From assembly GCA_902787575.1 (NCBI GenBank), contig CADAGX010000009.1, positions 1-64,000 of the forward strand: DNA of 64,000 nucleotides. Direction: 5' to 3'. Positions 1-15,377 of the stretch are shown piece after piece. A program made the position numbers and the translations under genes. The first letter of the stretch is position 1. Each line of letters starts with the position of its first letter. The notes under the pieces are model-generated. The model searched no databases. It was not told the DNA's origin and worked only from the letters and a program-made list of their open reading frames with translations. Source of the DNA: an uncultured Bacteroidales bacterium (GTDB lineage: Bacteria; Bacteroidota; Bacteroidia; Bacteroidales; Bacteroidaceae).

Positions 1-1284
1 CGAGAACACATACCACGTGAAGCGTGGCGCATACGACTCCCGCCCTTCGCCTTTCATCAGGTACGTTTCGCGGCCCAGCGGCGACTCGCACACATATTTC
101 ACGCTCACTTTCTGGCCTGCTGCGCCCGAGATGTTCTTCAGCCGCACCCAGCCCGACACTTCCTTCTCGAATTCCACTTCCCACGCGCCGTTCTCCTTCT
201 GTTTCACGCTGATGGGCTGCAGCACTTCGCATATCTTATCCGTGGGCGAGGTGTGTGCCGTTAGCCTTCCCACAGGCGCCACGGCCAGTCTGACGGGCTT
301 CCAGTCCGCCTCGTCGCATGCCGCCTCGGCCCACTGCGGCGTCTCCAGCCGTGCGTCGTAGTCCTCGCCGTCGTACACGCCCGTCATGGTGATTGCCGAA
401 GGCTTCGTCAGCCATGTGTCGTCCGTCGCTATCGTCTGCCGGCTGCCATCCTCGTACGTCACCTCTATCTGGCACAGAAAACACGGCTCGCCGAACGAGC
501 GCACCCAGTGCGTAGTGCTGCGGTAGAAGCCGTCGCCCACGATGGCGCCCGCCGCATTCTGTCCGCTGCGCAGGAGCGACGTGATATCATACGAGAGATA
601 GAGCACCCTGTAGGCCGTAAACTTGGCGTCGAGTGCCAGACCGCCCTTGTCGAGGTCGGGACGTGTGGTGTAGTTCGTGAAATTCGGCACCAGGCAGTCG
701 TCGCCCACACGCCGTCCGTTCACATACAGCTCAAAGTAGCCACCGGCCGTCACGTAAGCCTTCGCCTGCCGGATGCTGCCTTTCAGGTCGAATTTCTTGC
801 GCAGCAGCGGTGCACCCTTCTCCTGTCCGGCACTTATCCACTTCGCCTTCCAGTCGGCGGGCGACAGCAAGCCCATGCCCCAGTGCGCTACCTCGCTCCA
901 CTGCGACACCTTCTTCTTGGCGTCCCACGTCTGCACCTTCCAGTAGCAGTCCTGCCCCGAGCGGAGCGGCCTGCCAGCGTACGGAATCAGCGTGGACACC
1001 TCCGACGGCACGCGGCCCGTGTCCCACAGGTCGTAGTCGCCCGCTGCCAGTCGCTCCTCCGACGATGCCACCACCACGCGGTAAGCCGTCTGTCGCTGGC
1101 CGCGCGCAGCCTCGTCTGCCTCGTTAATCCACGAAAGGCGAGGGTGCACCTCGTCCACCGTACTCGGGTTTTGCATGTGCTCCACCGTGAGCGCACCAAC
1201 CCGCAACTGTGCTTGCATTTGCGTGCAGGTCACCACTGCCACCGCACCAGCCGCCATCCACTTTATTAGCCGTAAATGTCCCAT
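1..1284 (-). CDS. Alpha-L-rhamnosidase, GH78 family (5' part, runs off window)
   Basis: Read on the minus strand from ATG at 1284, the frame stays open to the window edge, giving 428 codons without a stop. A hydrophobic N-terminal signal segment is followed by a fibronectin-like domain (LSWINEADE, then YRVVVASS), then the GH78 N-terminal beta-sandwich (LLRKKFDL, AYVTAGGYFELYVNGRRVGD, YLSYDITSLL, GAIVGDGFY). The catalytic (alpha/alpha)6 barrel must lie outside the window. The family removes terminal alpha-L-rhamnose from plant glycans and glycosides; the signal points to the periplasm or cell surface. A rhamnose catabolic operon lies in the same window near 36.5-41.2 kb. The N-terminal assignment is strong. 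Substrate is not deducible. Confidence 0.88.
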   Translation of the reverse strand, partial: MGHLRLIKWMAAGAVAVVTCTQMQAQLRVGALTVEHMQNPSTVDEVHPRLSWINEADEAARGQRQTAYRVVVASSEERLAAGDYDLWDTGRVPSEVSTLIPYAGRPLRSGQDCYWKVQTWDAKKKVSQWSEVAHWGMGLLSPADWKAKWISAGQEKGAPLLRKKFDLKGSIRQAKAYVTAGGYFELYVNGRRVGDDCLVPNFTNYTTRPDLDKGGLALDAKFTAYRVLYLSYDITSLLRSGQNAAGAIVGDGFYRSTTHWVRSFGEPCFLCQIEVTYEDGSRQTIATDDTWLTKPSAITMTGVYDGEDYDARLETPQWAEAACDEADWKPVRLAVAPVGRLTAHTSPTDKICEVLQPISVKQKENGAWEVEFEKEVSGWVRLKNISGAAGQKVSVKYVCESPLGRETYLMKGEGRESYAPRFTWYVFS

Positions 1285-1315
1285 TTCTGCGTGTATTCTT
1301 GTTAGTTTCACGCGC

Positions 1316-1323
1316 CAAAGTTA
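1316..1323 (-). promoter_or_regulatory. -7 promoter box TAACTTTG for the GH78 gene
   Basis: Minus-strand TAACTTTG matches the Bacteroidota -7 consensus TAnnTTTG, 31 nt before the GH78 start codon. It forms the edge of the tandem repeat that begins at 1320. Confidence 0.6.
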
Positions 1324-1536
1324 CGAATTAACGAGCGAAATACAAAACGAAAAGTCGCCTTTTCGTTTTTATTTCCGAGTGCCAGTAACTTCGATGGCAA
1401 TCACAGTTACGAATTAACGAGCGAAGTACAAAACGAAAAGACTCTTTTCGTTTTTATTTCCGAGTGTCAGTAACTTCGATGACAGTCACAGTTACGAATT
1501 AACGAGCGAAGTACAAAACGAAAAGCCGCCTTTTTT
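1320..1536. repeat. Tandem intergenic repeat, period 85-86 bp, about 2.5 copies
   Basis: Units starting at 1320, 1406 and 1491 share GTTACGAATTAACGAGCGAA, then an AAAACGAAAAG / CTTTTCGTTTT inverted repeat, then CCGAGTG.CAGTAACTTCGATG. The third copy breaks off near 1536. The first unit begins at the GH78 promoter box. A related 76 bp repeat lies at 52063-52210. The arrangement suggests duplication of an upstream promoter region; no coding potential is seen. Confidence 0.85.
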
Positions 1537-1575
1537 GTTATAAAATTCTTAAAAAACCTCCAATTTGGGGCAAAA

Positions 1576-1668
1576 CCTACACCATTTTGCCTTACCTACA
1601 CCCGAACCTACACACCCTTAACGCACTGCTTACCAGTGAACTAAACCACAAAAAGTGTAGGATGTAGG
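1576..1668. repeat. CCTACA direct repeats with facing TGTAGG copies
   Basis: CCTACA occurs at 1576, 1595 and 1607. Its complement TGTAGG occurs at 1656 and 1663. The two groups could pair across about 45 nt into an imperfect hairpin, or act as a multi-site operator. The function is unknown. Confidence 0.5.
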
Positions 1669-1804
1669 TTTTTTCGCAGAAAAATTTTGTTGGGTAGTGT
1701 TGTACTGGCCATTTCACACATCTCGTCCTCCTGCTCCCCTCGCTTCTCCAACATTATGCCTCCGAAATATTTGTTTCTCCCAAAGAAATTACATATCTTC
1801 GCAT

Positions 1805-1812
1805 TAAATTTG
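1805..1812 (+). promoter_or_regulatory. Candidate -7 box TAAATTTG for the DpnI-like gene
   Basis: TAAATTTG fits TAnnTTTG and lies 29 nt before the ATG at 1842. A GGGAG stretch just before the start could act as a ribosome site, although Bacteroidota rely little on these. Confidence 0.45.
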
Positions 1813-1841
1813 AATGGGAACAATGGGAATAATGGGAGAAA

Positions 1842-2618
1842 ATGATGGACTTGCACTTCAATCAAAACTTGGCAATTGGTTATCATAGTGGTTCGCAGAT
1901 ATCGCGCGTGATAACAGAAGACTGGGTTGCACGTAATATGTTTTGCCCAGTTTGCGGTGCTCCTGTTCTGGGGCATTATGAGGCCAATAAACCTGTGGCA
2001 GACTTTTTTTGCGATGATTGCCAGTCAGACTTTGAACTGAAGAGTAGAAAGAGTAAGAATGCTACAATCGAGCACAAGATTGCCGATGGTGCATACGCAA
2101 CGATGATTGAACGTATTACATCATTGCGCAACCCTCACTTGTTTGTGATGACATATGCCGATTGGAAGGTAAATAATCTACTGATGATACCCAATTATTT
2201 TTTTGTTCCAGATATCATCGAGAAGCGCAAGCCGCTTGCTGAAACTAATCGTCGAGCAGGTTGGGTAGGCTGTTATATCGAGATTGGAGATATTCCTGAA
2301 AGCGGTAAGATATTTATTATAAGAAATAGTCGGCAAGAGGACAAATCTCGTGTTGTAGACCAATATCAGCGTTCATTATCATTAAGAAAGGCAGAGATAG
2401 GGAGTCGTGGTTGGCTGATGGACGTTTTGAAATGTCTGGAAAGGATACCAGACGACAACTTCCGACTTGATGAGGTTTATGCATTTGCTGATGAACTGCA
2501 ACTGAAGCATCCCGATAATAACCACATACATGACAAAATTCGTCAGCAGCTTCAGTTTCTTCGCGACAAGGGATTTGTTCAGTTCATATCCCCAGGCAAA
2601 TACTGTAAGATTCGCTGA
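1842..2618 (+). CDS. DpnI-like type IIM (methyl-directed) restriction endonuclease
   Basis: This 258-residue protein resembles DpnI over its whole length. The N-terminal half carries RVITEDWV, a zinc-binding pair of CxxC motifs (C35/C38 and C57/C60), and the PD-(D/E)xK core PVAD...FELKS with D54, E65 and K67. These become D53, E64 and K66 if the second ATG at 1845 is the start, which matches DpnI numbering from memory. RKPLAETNRRAGWVGC and SRGW follow. The C-terminal winged helix (HDKIRQQLQFLRDKGF, then GKYCKIR) corresponds to the DpnI domain that reads methyladenine. DpnI cuts GATC only when adenine-methylated, so the host should lack Dam methylation. No methyltransferase is adjacent. The gene is much more AT-rich than its neighbours, which suggests horizontal acquisition. 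Activity is inferred. Confidence 0.93.
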   Translation: MMDLHFNQNLAIGYHSGSQISRVITEDWVARNMFCPVCGAPVLGHYEANKPVADFFCDDCQSDFELKSRKSKNATIEHKIADGAYATMIERITSLRNPHLFVMTYADWKVNNLLMIPNYFFVPDIIEKRKPLAETNRRAGWVGCYIEIGDIPESGKIFIIRNSRQEDKSRVVDQYQRSLSLRKAEIGSRGWLMDVLKCLERIPDDNFRLDEVYAFADELQLKHPDNNHIHDKIRQQLQFLRDKGFVQFISPGKYCKIR

Positions 2619-2633
2619 AATGATCTCCTGTCA

Positions 2634-2780
2634 ATGAGTAGGGCAAGAAGAGAAGAGATTGAAAACGTTGCTGTTCGGAATGATTATCTTGAAAGATTGG
2701 CAAAAGCAAAAATCATTTTGCCTTACGAAGAATTCTTTGTGGCTGATGAATCAAACAATGCGTACGATGTTCCTTGGTAA
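2634..2780 (+). CDS. Small unknown ORF directly after the DpnI-like gene
   Basis: Starting at ATG 2634, 48 codons run to TAA at 2778. The product is charged (MSRARREEIENV, then LERLAKAKIILPYEEFF, ending NAYDVPW). It lies in the same frame as the preceding gene, 15 nt after its TGA stop, in the same AT-rich segment. The family is not recognised. It may be a small partner of the nuclease (DpnI-type operons carry a second gene, dpnD), a decayed remnant, or a chance frame. No good ribosome site is seen. Confidence 0.4.
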   Translation: MSRARREEIENVAVRNDYLERLAKAKIILPYEEFFVADESNNAYDVPW

Positions 2781-2823
2781 TAAATTATCAAGATAGATAA
2801 TCGAACTTTTATACTTTTAATCG

Positions 2824-2831
2824 TATCTTTG
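2824..2831 (+). promoter_or_regulatory. -7 promoter box TATCTTTG for the GH30 gene
   Basis: TATCTTTG is a perfect TAnnTTTG match, in AT-rich sequence 62 nt before the preferred start at 2894. Confidence 0.65.
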
Positions 2832-2893
2832 CAAAAACAAATGTTTGCGGACGAATGCTTACGCGCGTGCGCGTAATAAATAATAAGGTAGGT

Positions 2894-4339
2894 ATGATGA
2901 GAAGAGTTTGTTTCTTTGCGGCGGGCTTGTGGCTCGCAGTGGCTCCGCTGTGGGCGCAGTATTACAAGACGTACACCACCACGGCTGACGGACGACGGCT
3001 GATGGCTGTGGAGACGGGACGCTCGGCTGAGGGCGAGGGGAGTGTGGTGTCTGTGGATGCGGGCAGGAAGTATCAGACGATGGAGGGCTTCGGGTATGCG
3101 GTGACGTACAGCGCGGCATACAACTTGCTCCGTATGCAGCCGAGCGAGCGGCATGCGTTTCTGGTACGCACGTTCAGCCCCAAGGCGGGCTACGGATGCA
3201 GCTACGTGAGGGTTAGCATCGGGTGCAGCGACTTCAGCAGTACGGAGTACACGCTGTGCGACACGGAGGGGCTGGAGCACTTTGGCTTGCAGCGCGACGA
3301 GACGGACTACGTGATTCCTGTGCTGCACGAAATCCTGCAGATAAATCCGGAGCTGAAGATTATCGCAGCGCCGTGGACGTGCCCGCGATGGATGAAAGTG
3401 GAGAATCAGCAGAGCCTGAAGCCGCACTACGAGTGGACAGCCGGTCATCTGAATCCTAAATACTACGCTGACTACGCGCAGTACTTCGTGAAGTTTGTGC
3501 AGGCAATGGGCGAACAGGGCATTCCCATCTATGCCGTCTCGCCGCAGAACGAGCCGCTGACGGGCGGCAACTGTGCATCGTTGTTCATGCTCTGGGAGGA
3601 GCAGGCGGAGTTTCTGAAGCATCTGGCGCCGGTCTTCAAGCGTGCAGGGCTGAAGACGAAGATTTATGCCTTCGACCACAACTTCAACTACGACCGGATG
3701 AGCGGGCAGGAGCAGTACCCGCTGAAGGTGTTTGCTGCGCTGGGCGATGTGGAAGGCAAGGAACTGGTGGCCGGCTCGGCATGGCACAGCTATGGCGGCC
3801 ATCCGAGCGAGCTGGAGAAGATACGACGTGGCGCGCCGGAGAAGGGCATCATCTTCACGGAGGCGAGCATCGGCACGTGGAACGACGGTCGCAACCTCTC
3901 GTCGCTGCCCGACGACTTCGACTTTCTGGTGCTCGGCACTGTGAATCGCTACTGCAGCGCGGTGGTGGTGTGGAACCTGATGCTCGACCTGCAGCGTGGC
4001 CCCAATCTGGCCGGTGGCTGCACCACGTGCTTCGGCGCCGTGGACATAGACGAGAAGGACTACCGCACGATTACGCCTAACCGCCAGTACTACATGATTA
4101 ACCACATTGCGGCGGTGGTGCAACCGGGCGCCGTACGCATAGGCGGCGAGGGGAGAGCCGAGGGCGTGAACATGGCTTTCTTCCGCAATCCGGACGGCAC
4201 GGTGGCTGTGGTGGCTGCCAACCTGGGAACGGAGGACCGCAAGGTGACGCTCAAGGTTAAGAAGCCGCGTGTGTCGGCTCCTGTGGTGGTGCCGGCCCGC
4301 AGTGTGGTGTCTGTGCTGTTGAGCAGACGGAAACTATAA
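2894..4339 (+). CDS. Glycoside hydrolase family 30 (glucosylceramidase-like)
   Basis: The 481-residue product starts at the ATG that gives a clean signal peptide (MMRRVCFFAAGLWLAVAPLWA, cut before QYYK); an in-frame ATG at 2855 would add 13 unlikely residues. GH30 hallmarks are QTMEGFGYAVTYSAAYNL, YVRVSIGCSDFS, APWTCPRWMK, the acid/base glutamate in VSPQNEPL and the nucleophile glutamate in IIFTEASIGTW. A C-terminal beta domain (VRIGGEG...VAAN) follows. GH30 enzymes hydrolyse beta-glucosyl, beta-1,6-glucan or xylan linkages; the exact substrate cannot be read. It is probably periplasmic or surface-exposed and transcribed alone, since terminator and promoter signals flank it. Confidence 0.92.
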   Translation: MMRRVCFFAAGLWLAVAPLWAQYYKTYTTTADGRRLMAVETGRSAEGEGSVVSVDAGRKYQTMEGFGYAVTYSAAYNLLRMQPSERHAFLVRTFSPKAGYGCSYVRVSIGCSDFSSTEYTLCDTEGLEHFGLQRDETDYVIPVLHEILQINPELKIIAAPWTCPRWMKVENQQSLKPHYEWTAGHLNPKYYADYAQYFVKFVQAMGEQGIPIYAVSPQNEPLTGGNCASLFMLWEEQAEFLKHLAPVFKRAGLKTKIYAFDHNFNYDRMSGQEQYPLKVFAALGDVEGKELVAGSAWHSYGGHPSELEKIRRGAPEKGIIFTEASIGTWNDGRNLSSLPDDFDFLVLGTVNRYCSAVVVWNLMLDLQRGPNLAGGCTTCFGAVDIDEKDYRTITPNRQYYMINHIAAVVQPGAVRIGGEGRAEGVNMAFFRNPDGTVAVVAANLGTEDRKVTLKVKKPRVSAPVVVPARSVVSVLLSRRKL

Positions 4340-11021: not shown

Positions 11022-14000
11022 TTACTTATACTCGCTCCAGCTTCTGATGGCCAGGTCTTCGGGACGCATGGTGCAGAAAGCTTGGATGAATGCTGCGGCC
11101 AGACGTGTGTTGGTGATGAGCGGCACGTTCAGGTCCACAGCTGCGCGGCGAATCTTGTAGCCGTTCGTGAGTTCGCCGGCAGAAAGGTCCTTCGGAATGT
11201 TCACCACCATGTCTATCTTGTGCTGGTGCAGCAGGTCGAGTGCCTGCGGCTGACAGTCGGCATCGCTGGGCCAGTGCACGAGCGTGTTGGGGATGCCGTT
11301 GTCGGTCAGATAGTGGCTCGTGCCGCCTGTGGCGTAGAGGCTGTATCCGTGCTCCACCAGCATTCTGGCGGCGTCGAGCATGGCTGCCTTGTCTTTGGCC
11401 GGACCCGTGGAAAGAAGAATGTTCTGCTTGGGAATGCGGTGGCCGACGGCCAGCATGGCTTTCAGCAAGGCCGCATTGGCGTCTTCGCCAAGACAGCCTA
11501 CTTCGCCGGTGGATGACATGTCCACTCCCAGCACGGGGTCGGCTTTCTGCAGGCGGTTGAAGGAGAACTGGCTGGCCTTGATGCCCACGTAGTCGAAGTC
11601 GAAGAAACTCTTGTGAGGCTTCTCAACGGGCAGACCGAGCATGATACGTGTGGCCAGCTCGATGAGATTTATCTTCAGCACCTTGCTGACGAACGGGAAC
11701 GAACGCGAGGCGCGCAGGTTGCACTCGATGACTTTTATTTCGTTGTCCTTGGCCAGATATTGTATGTTGAAGGGGCCGCTGATGTGAAGTTCGCGAGCAA
11801 TCTGCGCGCTTATCTTTTTGATTCGGCGAACCGTCTCGACGTAGAGTTTCTGAGCCGGGAACTGAATTGTGGCGTCGCCCGAGTGCACACCGGCAAACTC
11901 GATATGCTCGGAAATGGCGTATGCGATGATTTCTCCGTCGCGTGCCACGGCATCCATCTCCACCTCCTTGGTGTTCTGCATGAACTTGGAAATTACGACG
12001 GGATGCTTCTTGCTCACGTTTGCGGCCACTTGCAGGAAGCGTTCCAACTCGTCCTGGTTGGAGCAAACATTCATGGCAGCTCCGGAAAGCACGTATGACG
12101 GGCGAACCAACACCGGGTAACCGACGCGCTGGATGAAGGCGTTTACGTCCTCCATCGAGGTCAGCGCACTCCATTCCGGCTGGTCGACGCCGATGCGGTC
12201 GAGCATGGCGCTGAATTTGTCGCGGTCCTCGGCGTTGTCAATGTAGCGTGCCTGTGTTCCCAGTATGGGTACTTTCTGAGCATCGAGCTTCAGCGCCAGG
12301 TTGTTCGGAATCTGTCCGCCGGTGCTTACCACGACGCCGCGCGGTTCCTCCAGGTCGAGCACGTCCATGACACGCTCGAAAGTAAGTTCGTCGAAGTAGA
12401 GGCGGTCGCACATGTCATAGTCGGTAGACACGGTTTCCGGGTTATAATTTATCATTATGGAGCGGTAACCCTCCTTACGTATCGTGTGAAGTGCCTGCAC
12501 GCCGCACCAGTCAAATTCCACCGAAGAGCCAATTCTGTAGGCGCCGGAGCCGAGCACCACGATGCTGCGCCCGTCTTTCTGGAATTCGATGTCGTGCGCC
12601 ACGCCTGCGTACGTCAGATAGAGGTAGTTTGTCTGGGCCGGATATTCGGCGGCCAGCGTGTCTATCTGCTTGACGTAAGGCATGATGCCCATTTCCTTGC
12701 GTTTGCGGCGTACTTGCATCACGCCTTCTTCGATGTCCATCTTTGCCTCGAGGCCAATGGCACGTGCCACTTGGAAGTCTGTGAAGCCATAGACCTTGGC
12801 CGTCTGCAGGAGGTCGTGCGTCAGGCCGCTGAAGCCGTCGCACTCGTGCAGCTGGTTGTCGATTTGCCGAATGTGCTGCAATTTCTGCAGGAACCAGCGG
12901 TCTATCTTTGTCAGCTGATAAATATGTTCTACGGAGTATCCCTGACGAAGCGCCTTGGCGATGATGAAGACGCGCTTATCCGTCGGCTCGCGCAGGGCAC
13001 GGTCGATATCGTCGATGACAAGCTCCTTGTTCTCCACAAAGCCGTGCATTCCCTGACCTATCATGCGCAGTCCCTTTTGCAACGACTCTTCGAAAGTGCG
13101 GCCGATGGCCATCACTTCGCCCACGGACTTCATGCTACTGCCCAATTCGCGGTCCACGCCACGGAATTTGCCGAGGTCCCAACGCGGGATTTTGCACACC
13201 ACATAGTCGATGGCGGGCTCGAAGAATGCCGTCGTGGTCTTCGTTACGGAGTTTTTCAGCTCAAAGAGTCCGTATCCGAGTCCCAGTTTTGCGGCTACGA
13301 AAGCCAGCGGATAACCTGTGGCCTTGCTGGCCAGCGCCGACGAGCGCGAGAGGCGAGCGTTCACCTCAATGACGCGGTAATCCTCGCTCTCTGGGTCGAA
13401 TGCGAACTGAATATTACATTCTCCCACGATTCCTATGTGGCGTATGATCTCTATGCTCAGTGCGCGCAGCTTTTGGTATTCCGAATTGTTCAGCGTCTGC
13501 GACGGCGCCACCACGATGGATTCGCCCGTGTGAATGCCGAGCGGGTCGAAATTCTCCATGCTACAAACGGTGATGCAGTTGTCGTAGCGGTCGCGGACTA
13601 CCTCGTACTCAATTTCCTTCCATCCTTTCAGACTTTTCTCCACCAGTACCTGCGGCGAGAAGGCGAAGGCTTTCTCCGCTATCTTGTTTAATTCTTCCTC
13701 GTTGTCGCAGAATCCCGAGCCAAGACCGCCCAGCGCGTAGGCGGCACGTATGATAATCGGGTAGCCAAGTTCGCGGGCAGCCTTGCGGGCCGACTCAATG
13801 TCTTCGCACGCCTGGCTCTTGATGGTTTTCACGTTTATCTCGTCGAGTCGCTCCACGAAGAGTTCGCGGTCCTCCGTGTCGATGATGGCTTGCACCGGTG
13901 TGCCCAGCACTTGTACGCCGTACTTCTCCAGTACGCCGCTCTTGAAAAGTTGCACGCCGCAGTTCAGTGCCGTCTGTCCGCCGAATGCCAGCAGAATTCC

Positions 14001-15377
14001 CTCGGGGCGCTCCTTCTCGATGACACGCTCCACAAAGAAGGGTGTCACGGGCAGGAAGTAGATTTGGTCGGCCACTCCTTCGGAAGTCTGCACCGTGGCA
14101 ATGTTGGGATTGATGAGCACCGTCTTGATTCCCTCCTCGCGCAGTGCCTTTAGTGCCTGCGAACCGCTGTAGTCGAACTCGCCGGCTTCGCCAATCTTCA
14201 GCGCGCCCGAACCGAGCAGTAGCACCTTTTTCAGCATTTTCGGCTTGTCGCTCGATTTTGTCGGTACGTTTTTCGTCGTTTCGGTTTTAGGATCGTGGAG
14301 CAGCGCCACGAAATTGTCAAACAGCAGGTCCATATCCAGCGGGCCCGAGCAGGCCTCGGGGTGGAATTGTGCCGAAAACCAGGGATTGGTCTTGTGGCGC
14401 AGGCCCTCATTCGAGCCGTCGTTCATATTCACGAACGAGGTTTCCCATCCCTCGGGCAGCGTTGTGTCGTCTACAGCGTAGCCGTGATTCTGCGTCGTGA
14501 TGAAGCAGTGATTTGTGCCGACCTGGCGCACGGGCTGGTTGTGCGAGCGGTGGCCGTACTTCAACTTATATATGCGCGCGCCGGCAGCTTTTCCAAGCAA
14601 CTGGTTGCCCATGCAGATTCCCATGCAGGGACGCACGTTGGGAGAGGCCAGAAATTTGCGGATATTCTCGACAGTGGCCACGCAGGTCTCGGGATCGCCG
14701 GGGCCATTGGCCAGGAAGAGGCCGTCGAACTCCATATCGTTGAAATCGTAGTCCCACGGCACGCGTATTACTTCCACGCCACGGCGCAGCAGGCACCGGA
14801 TGATGTTGGCCTTCACGCCGCAGTCCACCAGCACCACTTTCTTTGTGGCATTCTCTGCCTTGTAGCGTATCACTTCCTTGCAGCTCACTTGCTCCACGAA
14901 GTTTACGCCCTCGTATTTGGCCTCAGGGATGTTGTCGGGCTCGTCGTCGAAAAGAATTTTTCCCATCATCACGCCGTGCTCGCGCAGCACCTTTGTCAGT
15001 TCGCGCGTGTCAATGCCTGTGATGCCGGGCACCTGCTCGCGCTTGAGCCAGTCGGCCAGTGTCTCCACGCCGTTCCAGTGGCTGAACTCCTCGCTGTAGT
15101 CGCTGACGATTAGCGCGTTGGCGTAGATGCGTTCGCCTTCCATATAGGTGGGCAGGCCGTTCTCTTCGAAAGTAAATGGCGGCACGCCGTAATTTCCCAC
15201 GAGTGGGAAGGTGAGCGCCAACAGCTGGCCGGCGTAGCTGGGGTCTGTCAAACTCTCTGGGTAGCCCATCATGGCGGTATTGAACACCACTTCGCCAGCC
15301 GCAGGCTTCTCGTATCCGAAGGAGGTTCCGTGGAACTCAGTTCCGTCCTCCAGTCTCAATGTAACTTTTCTGCTCAT
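11022..15377 (-). CDS. Carbamoyl-phosphate synthase, fused small and large subunits (CarA-CarB)
   Basis: This single 1451-codon frame makes carbamoyl phosphate from glutamine, bicarbonate and ATP for pyrimidine and arginine synthesis. Residues 1-365 are CarA: the N-terminal domain (KVTLRLEDGTEFHGTSFGYE) and a class I glutaminase with nucleophile Cys in MGICMGNQLLGKAAG and His in WFSAQFHPEA. A Lys/Thr/Ser-rich linker runs over about 366-380 (KTETTKNVPTKSSDKPK). CarB starts at Met381 (MLKKVLLLGSGALKIGEAGE) with two ATP-grasp halves, a middle oligomerisation domain and a C-terminal MGS-like domain (ILLSTGPAKDKA, YATGGTSHYL). I read the linker codons directly and found no stop. Bacterial CarA and CarB are normally separate; a fusion resembles eukaryotic CPSII. 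A leader hairpin upstream suggests attenuation. Confidence 0.95.
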   Translation of the reverse strand: MSRKVTLRLEDGTEFHGTSFGYEKPAAGEVVFNTAMMGYPESLTDPSYAGQLLALTFPLVGNYGVPPFTFEENGLPTYMEGERIYANALIVSDYSEEFSHWNGVETLADWLKREQVPGITGIDTRELTKVLREHGVMMGKILFDDEPDNIPEAKYEGVNFVEQVSCKEVIRYKAENATKKVVLVDCGVKANIIRCLLRRGVEVIRVPWDYDFNDMEFDGLFLANGPGDPETCVATVENIRKFLASPNVRPCMGICMGNQLLGKAAGARIYKLKYGHRSHNQPVRQVGTNHCFITTQNHGYAVDDTTLPEGWETSFVNMNDGSNEGLRHKTNPWFSAQFHPEACSGPLDMDLLFDNFVALLHDPKTETTKNVPTKSSDKPKMLKKVLLLGSGALKIGEAGEFDYSGSQALKALREEGIKTVLINPNIATVQTSEGVADQIYFLPVTPFFVERVIEKERPEGILLAFGGQTALNCGVQLFKSGVLEKYGVQVLGTPVQAIIDTEDRELFVERLDEINVKTIKSQACEDIESARKAARELGYPIIIRAAYALGGLGSGFCDNEEELNKIAEKAFAFSPQVLVEKSLKGWKEIEYEVVRDRYDNCITVCSMENFDPLGIHTGESIVVAPSQTLNNSEYQKLRALSIEIIRHIGIVGECNIQFAFDPESEDYRVIEVNARLSRSSALASKATGYPLAFVAAKLGLGYGLFELKNSVTKTTTAFFEPAIDYVVCKIPRWDLGKFRGVDRELGSSMKSVGEVMAIGRTFEESLQKGLRMIGQGMHGFVENKELVIDDIDRALREPTDKRVFIIAKALRQGYSVEHIYQLTKIDRWFLQKLQHIRQIDNQLHECDGFSGLTHDLLQTAKVYGFTDFQVARAIGLEAKMDIEEGVMQVRRKRKEMGIMPYVKQIDTLAAEYPAQTNYLYLTYAGVAHDIEFQKDGRSIVVLGSGAYRIGSSVEFDWCGVQALHTIRKEGYRSIMINYNPETVSTDYDMCDRLYFDELTFERVMDVLDLEEPRGVVVSTGGQIPNNLALKLDAQKVPILGTQARYIDNAEDRDKFSAMLDRIGVDQPEWSALTSMEDVNAFIQRVGYPVLVRPSYVLSGAAMNVCSNQDELERFLQVAANVSKKHPVVISKFMQNTKEVEMDAVARDGEIIAYAISEHIEFAGVHSGDATIQFPAQKLYVETVRRIKKISAQIARELHISGPFNIQYLAKDNEIKVIECNLRASRSFPFVSKVLKINLIELATRIMLGLPVEKPHKSFFDFDYVGIKASQFSFNRLQKADPVLGVDMSSTGEVGCLGEDANAALLKAMLAVGHRIPKQNILLSTGPAKDKAAMLDAARMLVEHGYSLYATGGTSHYLTDNGIPNTLVHWPSDADCQPQALDLLHQHKIDMVVNIPKDLSAGELTNGYKIRRAAVDLNVPLITNTRLAAAFIQAFCTMRPEDLAIRSWSEYK

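Follow-up and report, generated by a model that had tools for sequence, protein, structure and literature searches.

A DpnI homologue and a dpnA remnant in a Bacteroidales genome suggest exchange of DpnII-type and DpnI-type systems in Bacteroidaceae

DpnI and DpnII are alternative cassettes of the pneumococcus (PMC12707154, PMC8547433, PMC4687349; here and below, sources given by PMC number are cited for the parts of their text that were available). In Neisseria, drg replaces dam (PMC516771, PMC4269198), and in three gonococcal genomes a gene for a DpnIIB-like methylase comes after drg (PMC4269198); in the one record that we examined, it carries an in-frame stop. DpnI-like genes have also been reported beside frameshifted methylases, one of them in Bacteroidota (PMC11037411), and P. 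intermedia 17, in which the nuclease gene has been lost, has in its place a second methylase assigned to GATC, which gave no protection when cloned (PMC5608340). Moreover, of 42 genomes that encode methyl-directed enzymes, 38 have fewer GATC sites than expected; this avoidance is a puzzle, as a host without the methyl mark should have nothing to fear from such an enzyme, and switching between DpnI and DpnII has already been proposed as its cause (PMC4687349). Among the matches listed for the open-licence PMC literature, we found no description of a DpnII-to-DpnI replacement in Bacteroidaceae.

The stretch of DNA analysed here, the window, comprises 64,000 nucleotides of an uncultured Bacteroidales bacterium (contig CADAGX010000009.1, positions 1 to 64,000), and its relevant features are collected in Table 1. 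The 258-residue ORF evidently is a real DpnI homologue. It matches R.DpnI (4esj/4kyw) over its full length (residues 2-257, phmmer E 6.7e-78), Pfam recognizes both PF06044 (DpnI, 2.1e-76) and, for the C-terminal winged helix, PF17726 (DpnI_C, E 2.6e-32), and PADLOC classifies the protein as mREase_II, a type II methyl-directed restriction enzyme (1.2e-98). In the phmmer alignment, D54, E65 and K67 correspond to the catalytic D53, E64 and K66 of DpnI, and L132, R138, W141 and G143 to its methyl pocket of L129, R135, W138 and G140 (for the roles of these DpnI residues, see PMC4117772). The catalytic triad and the zinc-site cysteines C35, C38, C57 and C60 are invariant in all 18 aligned homologues. 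Thus, the end-to-end DpnI identity that an earlier sequence-only reading had proposed, with catalytic residues, zinc-type cysteines and a C-terminal winged helix, is borne out in each of these respects.

Table 1. Features at the left end of the window (position 1 is its first letter).
Feature	Position	Strand	Evidence
GH78 alpha-L-rhamnosidase, left flank, runs past the window edge	1..1284	-	
AT-rich leader/intergenic DNA, ~40% GC, three copies of a 19-bp repeat	1281..1841	.	
DpnI homologue, 258 aa, N-terminal PD-(D/E)XK nuclease with 4-Cys zinc site, C-terminal winged helix	1842..2618	+	phmmer, Pfam, PADLOC, alignment
3' end (~53 codons) of a dpnA-type beta-class (PF01555) methyltransferase gene	2620..2785	+	blastn, tblastn, base-level alignment
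48-aa ORF P0002 inside the dpnA scrap	2634..2780	+	72.9% to L058 enzyme
GH30 glycosidase, right flank	2897..4339	+	

The gene resides in an AT-rich stretch, approximately 1281-2896, that is wider than dpnI itself, with a GC content of 0.41-0.42 in the 500-bp windows across 1251-3000 as compared to 0.53-0.65 in the flanks. The dpnI ORF has a GC of 0.423 and a GC3 of 0.409, the GH30 gene reaches 0.606 and 0.792, respectively, and the window as a whole has a GC of 0.575. Among 50 ORFs of at least 120 aa, chosen greedily and some surely spurious, dpnI has the lowest GC3. The sharp compositional break and the location between two glycosidase genes, GH78 to the left and GH30 to the right, were correctly recognized in the sequence-only reading. 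Its suggestion of horizontal transfer also stands, dpnI likely having been acquired in this manner as judged from base composition and patchy presence, with homologues of the protein (P0001) in 22 of 399 family genomes. At the order level, 4 of the 247 genomes have a PF06044 match over the cut-off; the window's own genome is included in both counts. The AT-rich stretch need however not all be imported DNA, since a repeat in its left part, TTACGAATTAACGAGCGAA, found three times in the leader about 86 bp apart (window 1321, 1407 and 1492), is resembled by sequence in locus L012 and, twice, in L140. As to mobile elements, one partial phage match and two gonococcal records were recovered for DpnI on phages and plasmids, and no DpnI relatives were found on viral contigs. 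Elsewhere in the window, a single 1451-aa ORF (11022-15377, minus strand) resembles, by eye, the small and large subunits of carbamoyl-phosphate synthase in one chain.

The earlier view that the island holds no methyltransferase requires amendment, as the very segment so described contains the 3' end of a DpnA-type gene, although only as a scrap. The stop of dpnI ends at 2618, and homology to dpnA begins at 2620 and runs to 2785. At the DNA level, the scrap is 72-78% identical to the dpnA genes of loci L058, L138 and L142 (blastn), and by tblastn it aligns to residues 309-361 of the 362 of the L058 enzyme with 69.8% identity (E 5.4e-18 against all loci, and 1.2e-23 when this short stretch is searched alone). 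The 48-aa ORF by itself is weak evidence, and one may ask if the similarity arose by chance or if the ORF is a small gene of other origin. This can practically be dismissed, however, considering that the homology is in frame and covers the extreme C-terminus of each of two full-length enzymes, that of L058 and a second one (E 4.2e-14, likewise against all loci), and that it lies at the flank of DpnI that holds dpnA in relatives. The scrap is no working methyltransferase gene. The pN/pS of the 48-aa ORF against five dpnA tails is 0.20-0.32, near the 0.11-0.25 of pairs among those five, and the truncation of dpnA in the window thus looks recent. The presence of a dpnA tail behind the DpnI gene suggests that one defence system displaced the other. 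To the left of the gene (1201-2000), scraps of dpnM, KilA-N and DpnD were sought and nothing rose above noise; as no dpnM scrap is found there, the DpnII ancestry of the window itself rests on this one scrap. Downstream, the best match to DpnD in 2561-2900 had an E of 0.97, equivalent to noise.

What kind of enzyme is encoded by the full-length dpnA-type genes? N6_N4_Mtase (PF01555) is detected in the L061 copy, the one tested. The best PDB sequence match of the L058 enzyme is CcrM (2.7e-54), which targets GANTC, and NCBIfam also returns CcrM for the L061 enzyme, far under the model cut-off. Since the best sequence match is CcrM, the DpnA assignment rests on operon context and on plasmid relatives. 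Three of the latter were examined, on pSRQ700 (54% identity) and from Staphylococcus and Lactiplantibacillus, and each lies within an operon of a dam-type methylase, the dpnA-type methylase and a type II nuclease; the pSRQ700 operon we take to be LlaDCHI, a DpnII isoschizomer. In Bacteroidaceae, 61 of the best 81 dpnA-type matches out of 105 listed (the other 24 being more distant or fragmentary) follow a Dam-like D12 gene of the same strand at a distance of no more than 5 kb. The gene order in the operons examined is dpnM-dpnB-dpnA, with a middle gene that in six of them (L138, L140, L141, L143, L147 and L157) encodes a nuclease of 272-282 aa, DpnII-like as judged by eye and assigned to PF04556 with an E of 1.4e-101 in L138, the single copy tested with Pfam. 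The D12 copy of L050 matches M.DpnM (2dpm) at 1.4e-47. GATC specificity of the dpnA-type enzyme would follow from this operon context.

A DpnD-like stretch is fused ahead of the dpnA-type methylase in L007, L009, L058, L061, L069, L149-L153, L155 and L156, as detected by tblastn or alignment. The starts of the 12 Bacteroidaceae dpnA copies labelled DpnII display no such extension. Separate DpnD-like matches are present upstream of dpnM in three DpnII-type operons (L141 2302-2457, L143 2245-2409 and L146 6156-6326).

We then surveyed 34 DpnI loci, the window and 33 relatives, 12 of which stem from one search and 21 from other family genomes, for remains of dpnM and dpnA by tblastn; the tallies cover the sequence present in each locus only, with L009 ending at a contig edge and L060 and L067 being 97% identical versions of one locus. 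Sequence of dpnM is found within 1.7 kb upstream of DpnI in 11 of the 34 loci, and in none of the 11 is the gene undamaged. Eight retain 5' scraps of 26-68 codons (L005, L006, L007, L013, L052, L057, L058 and L064), L010 has dpnM in pieces, and L008 and L050 have it nearly whole. A motif kept in all 12 operon copies of dpnM, RG--TE----N(Y/F), is affected in the latter two, as the L050 gene is without the RG--TE block and that of L008 stops inside it; these C-terminal changes would inactivate both. Downstream of DpnI, full-length dpnA is present in seven loci (L004, L005, L007, L009, L058, L061 and L069) and its 3' part only in three (L050, L066 and the window); of the former, L007 comes from a cultured organism, Prevotella cerevisiae DSM 100619. 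Together, dpnM and/or dpnA remains are found in 17 loci and neither in the other 17, and many DpnI copies may thus be plain insertions. Two further neighbors were observed: a small protein without Pfam match (114 aa in L006, shorter elsewhere) directly downstream of DpnI in 10 of the 34 loci, and a KilA-N domain protein, or pieces thereof, directly upstream in five (L050, L051, L052, L057 and L059, with the KilA-N identity Pfam-tested on L059 only).

Damaged DpnI genes are common among the relatives, five of the 34 loci having truncated copies and one, L055, a copy with three in-frame stops. L055 is a telling case, as its genome (G047) maintains an intact dpnM-dpnB-dpnA operon (L143) elsewhere. 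Such decay raises the question of whether the window nuclease, intact in sequence, is nevertheless silent or has drifted in specificity. The window copy, however, keeps its catalytic, zinc and methyl-pocket residues, and gonococcal Drg, 40% identical, cuts Gm6ATC (PMC4269198), and we hold silence or drift to be quite improbable.

In the relatives, an exchange is visible in the DNA itself. Locus L058 (genome G125, DpnI) and locus L142 (G228, DpnII) share 91% DNA identity up to approximately codon 55 of dpnM, lack any blastn match across dpnI-dpnD versus dpnM-dpnB, and match again, at 85.6% identity, over dpnA from approximately codon 5 to the end of the gene. Hence, the rest of dpnM and dpnB in the one locus is exchanged for dpnI and a DpnD-like domain, the latter forming an in-frame fusion with dpnA, in the other. 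The left homology of L138, L139, L140, L144 and L147 to L058 also ends at L058 7771-7775. The dpnM scrap of L058 has a pN/pS of 0.03-0.12, near intact-gene values, and the swap in this locus therefore looks recent. In a tree of 27 dpnA proteins, in which 15 of 24 inner branches are poorly supported, the three nuclease labels (DpnI, DpnII and a putative third) are intermingled, with minimum numbers of label changes on the well-supported branches of 4, 5 and 4, respectively. Swaps have thus probably recurred.

Alternatively, DpnI and the dpnA-type methylase could constitute a working pair, with the methylase marking single-stranded DNA for a DpnI-tied purpose. The seven loci with full-length dpnA downstream of DpnI would fit such an arrangement, mostly with the DpnD-like domain fused ahead (DpnD-PcfM, PF14207, E 8.1e-11 by Pfam on the L061 methylase, which alone was tested), as would a dpnA dN/dS of 0.02-0.04 in the three unsaturated comparisons that involve L058. 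However, the equally low pN/pS of the L058 dpnM scrap is a sign of a recent swap, such that intact dpnA may be a leftover. Furthermore, dpnA is cut down to its 3' part in the window, L050 and L066, the gonococcal neighbor methylase is broken, and frameshifted methylases accompany DpnI-like genes in PMC11037411. We thus regard a working pair as unlikely.

Aggregated, our preferred reading, with a rough probability of 0.7, is that a DpnII-type operon was displaced by a DpnI cassette, and that the window dpnI encodes a type IIM enzyme. The enzyme is predicted to attack phage and plasmid DNA that enters the cell with Dam or DpnII methylation, cutting it at Gm6ATC, and the host would be protected by the lack of methylation at its own GATC sites. 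In the exchange, dpnM and dpnB of an older dpnM-dpnB-dpnA operon would have been replaced, and dpnA spared or merely clipped. Each fate has a plausible rationale: dpnM would need to go, as its methylation would expose the chromosome to DpnI; dpnB would need to go, as it would cut the chromosome once unmethylated; and dpnA could stay, as pneumococcal DpnA works on single strands (PMC3573125). In the window genome, a remnant on the left is not detected, and directly behind DpnI the last 53 or so codons of dpnA persist. The direction of the swap is one that we infer, as is its setting, in the lineage of the window or in a donor.

Indeed, several observations at the window are compatible with a plain insertion, in which a ready-made cassette of dpnI and a dpnA stub arrived between the glycosidase genes and no DpnII operon was ever present at the site. 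Left of the gene there is no dpnM scrap, and the pN/pS of the dpnA scrap is close to that of intact dpnA pairs. GH30 homologues (E <= 1e-60) occur in 31 of 101 genus genomes, the window's own included, with a best foreign identity of 65%. No neighboring gene is common to the window and the other DpnI loci by blastp, and, apart from the repeat, blastn aligns no DNA of the window flanks to the DpnI, DpnII and third-nuclease loci. We consider such an insertion to have close to an even chance. Nevertheless, an in-place swap is visible elsewhere in the family, and an insertion at the window would alter the place of the swap, not its occurrence.

A search of the genome for Dam homologues, as called for by the sequence-only reading, which held that the host must lack Dam-type methylation, returned no D12 (Dam-type) match and no DpnA-type match at E <= 1e-20 in an assembly that is 86.9% complete. 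For PF01555, one partial match was obtained on another contig (25.9 bits versus a cut-off of 26.7, 51 profile positions). An intact DpnII-type R-M system is thus absent at the window, with only the dpnA 3' scrap adjoining dpnI and no D12 gene in the assembly. That reading had also described DpnI-like enzymes as known mainly from streptococci. This is not supported, as they are described in Neisseria (PMC4269198, PMC516771), mentioned for one case in Bacteroidota (PMC11037411), and scattered through Bacteroidaceae.

Genome-wide mutual exclusion of Dam-like D12 genes and DpnI was also evaluated, and was rejected as not significant. Some D12 match is present in 11 of the 22 DpnI genomes, above the Pfam cut-off in 10 (gene or piece). 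Intact-looking, more distant D12 genes, for which GATC specificity is not implied, are found in G190, G256, G355, G027 and G356; that of G355 (54 bits), unmatched by the dpnM queries, is located about 1.5 kb upstream of DpnI. With Dam-like D12 defined as 170 bits or more, a cut picked after the scores were seen, and the best 79 matches counted (170.9 bits or more), such genes occur in 1 of 19 intact-DpnI genomes versus 78 of 380 others (Fisher P = 0.14). The 19 are the 22 genomes less G047 (stops) and G338 and G128 (truncated), and the single exception is G152, which has the altered L050 copy. For intact dpnM-dpnB-dpnA operons alone, present in 61 genomes, the result was marginal, with 0 of 19 intact-DpnI genomes against 2.9 expected (P = 0.039), and 1 of 22 when all DpnI genomes are considered (P = 0.12). 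Exclusion of DpnI and DpnII across genomes is only suggestive.

The putative third nuclease, a protein of 239-247 aa, occupies the same slot in L148, L149, L150, L152, L153 and L155 (G152, G006, G155, G008, G386 and G025, respectively). By eye, its N-terminal part resembles a winged helix, and a conserved motif, DVIWF...E-EH, recalls PD-(D/E)XK nucleases. Scraps of dpnM lie upstream in L148, L153 and L155, and DpnD-dpnA lies downstream in all six except L148, which has a dpnA 5' part. The protein has no match in Pfam (one copy tested) or NCBIfam (three tested), and a weak one to REase_II in PADLOC (one tested). A homologue with 46% identity is encoded on a Halobacterium plasmid, where the five features listed within 3 kb in an incomplete gene table include no methylase. 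Structure prediction yielded a mean pLDDT of 41.5, and no reading was drawn from it.

Depletion of GATC was considered as a signature of the window DpnI and rejected as specific. In the window together with L071 and L072 of the same contig (90,239 bases), 38 GATC sites are observed versus approximately 274-277 expected from trinucleotides (0.14), and 11 CTAG sites versus 111 expected. Across the loci examined, GATC ranges from 0.09 to 0.88 of expectation and is low in most, whatever system they carry.

We tentatively extend the displacement reading, at somewhat less than even odds, to a GATC exchange slot in Bacteroidaceae, with dpnA anchoring it on the right and the 5' end of dpnM on the left, between which DpnII, DpnI and the third nuclease, possibly a second methyl-directed enzyme, would trade places. 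If such a slot exists, recurrent swaps, made easier by a scarcity of GATC sites, would account for GATC avoidance in genomes with methyl-directed enzymes only. The second methylase of P. intermedia 17 may be a further member of the slot. The exchange in Bacteroidaceae offers a concrete setting for the avoidance puzzle raised in PMC4687349. On the practical side, we predict that DpnI-bearing Bacteroidaceae would be best transformed with dam-minus DNA.

The pneumococcus offers the classical instance of DpnI/DpnII exchange, and replacement of dam by drg is known in Neisseria; the present case adds another clade, Bacteroidaceae, with clear scars. The textbook version comes from a single naturally transformable Gram-positive, and Neisseria provides a partial parallel; in Bacteroidaceae, the junctions allow the same exchange to be read. 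Among described systems, the winged-helix fusion m6A-dependent endonucleases of PMC11037411 include DpnI-like PD-(D/E)XK-wH enzymes, while a DpnII operon as the displaced partner is not described in the available parts of that work. The DpnII/MboI/LlaDCHI R-M systems represent the source of the dpnA scrap, and their three kinds of genes recur in the Bacteroidaceae operon; they follow the opposite logic, however, cutting unmethylated GATC, the Bacteroidaceae operons examined are ordered dpnM-dpnB-dpnA, and the window keeps only the 3' end of dpnA. Neisseria drg, the "dam replacing gene", is likewise a low-GC DpnI-like gene at a GATC methylase locus, in that case leuS/dam, with a product 40% identical to the window protein, whereas 5' dpnM scraps and DpnD-dpnA fusions are seen in Bacteroidaceae. 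The R.DpnI/dpnI cassette of Streptococcus pneumoniae shares with the window homology over the full length of the protein, the active site, the zinc site, the methyl pocket and the winged helix, and is likewise tied to a DpnII-type locus. The window differs in belonging to another phylum, in being without dpnD, and in keeping a dpnA 3' end directly behind the nuclease gene.
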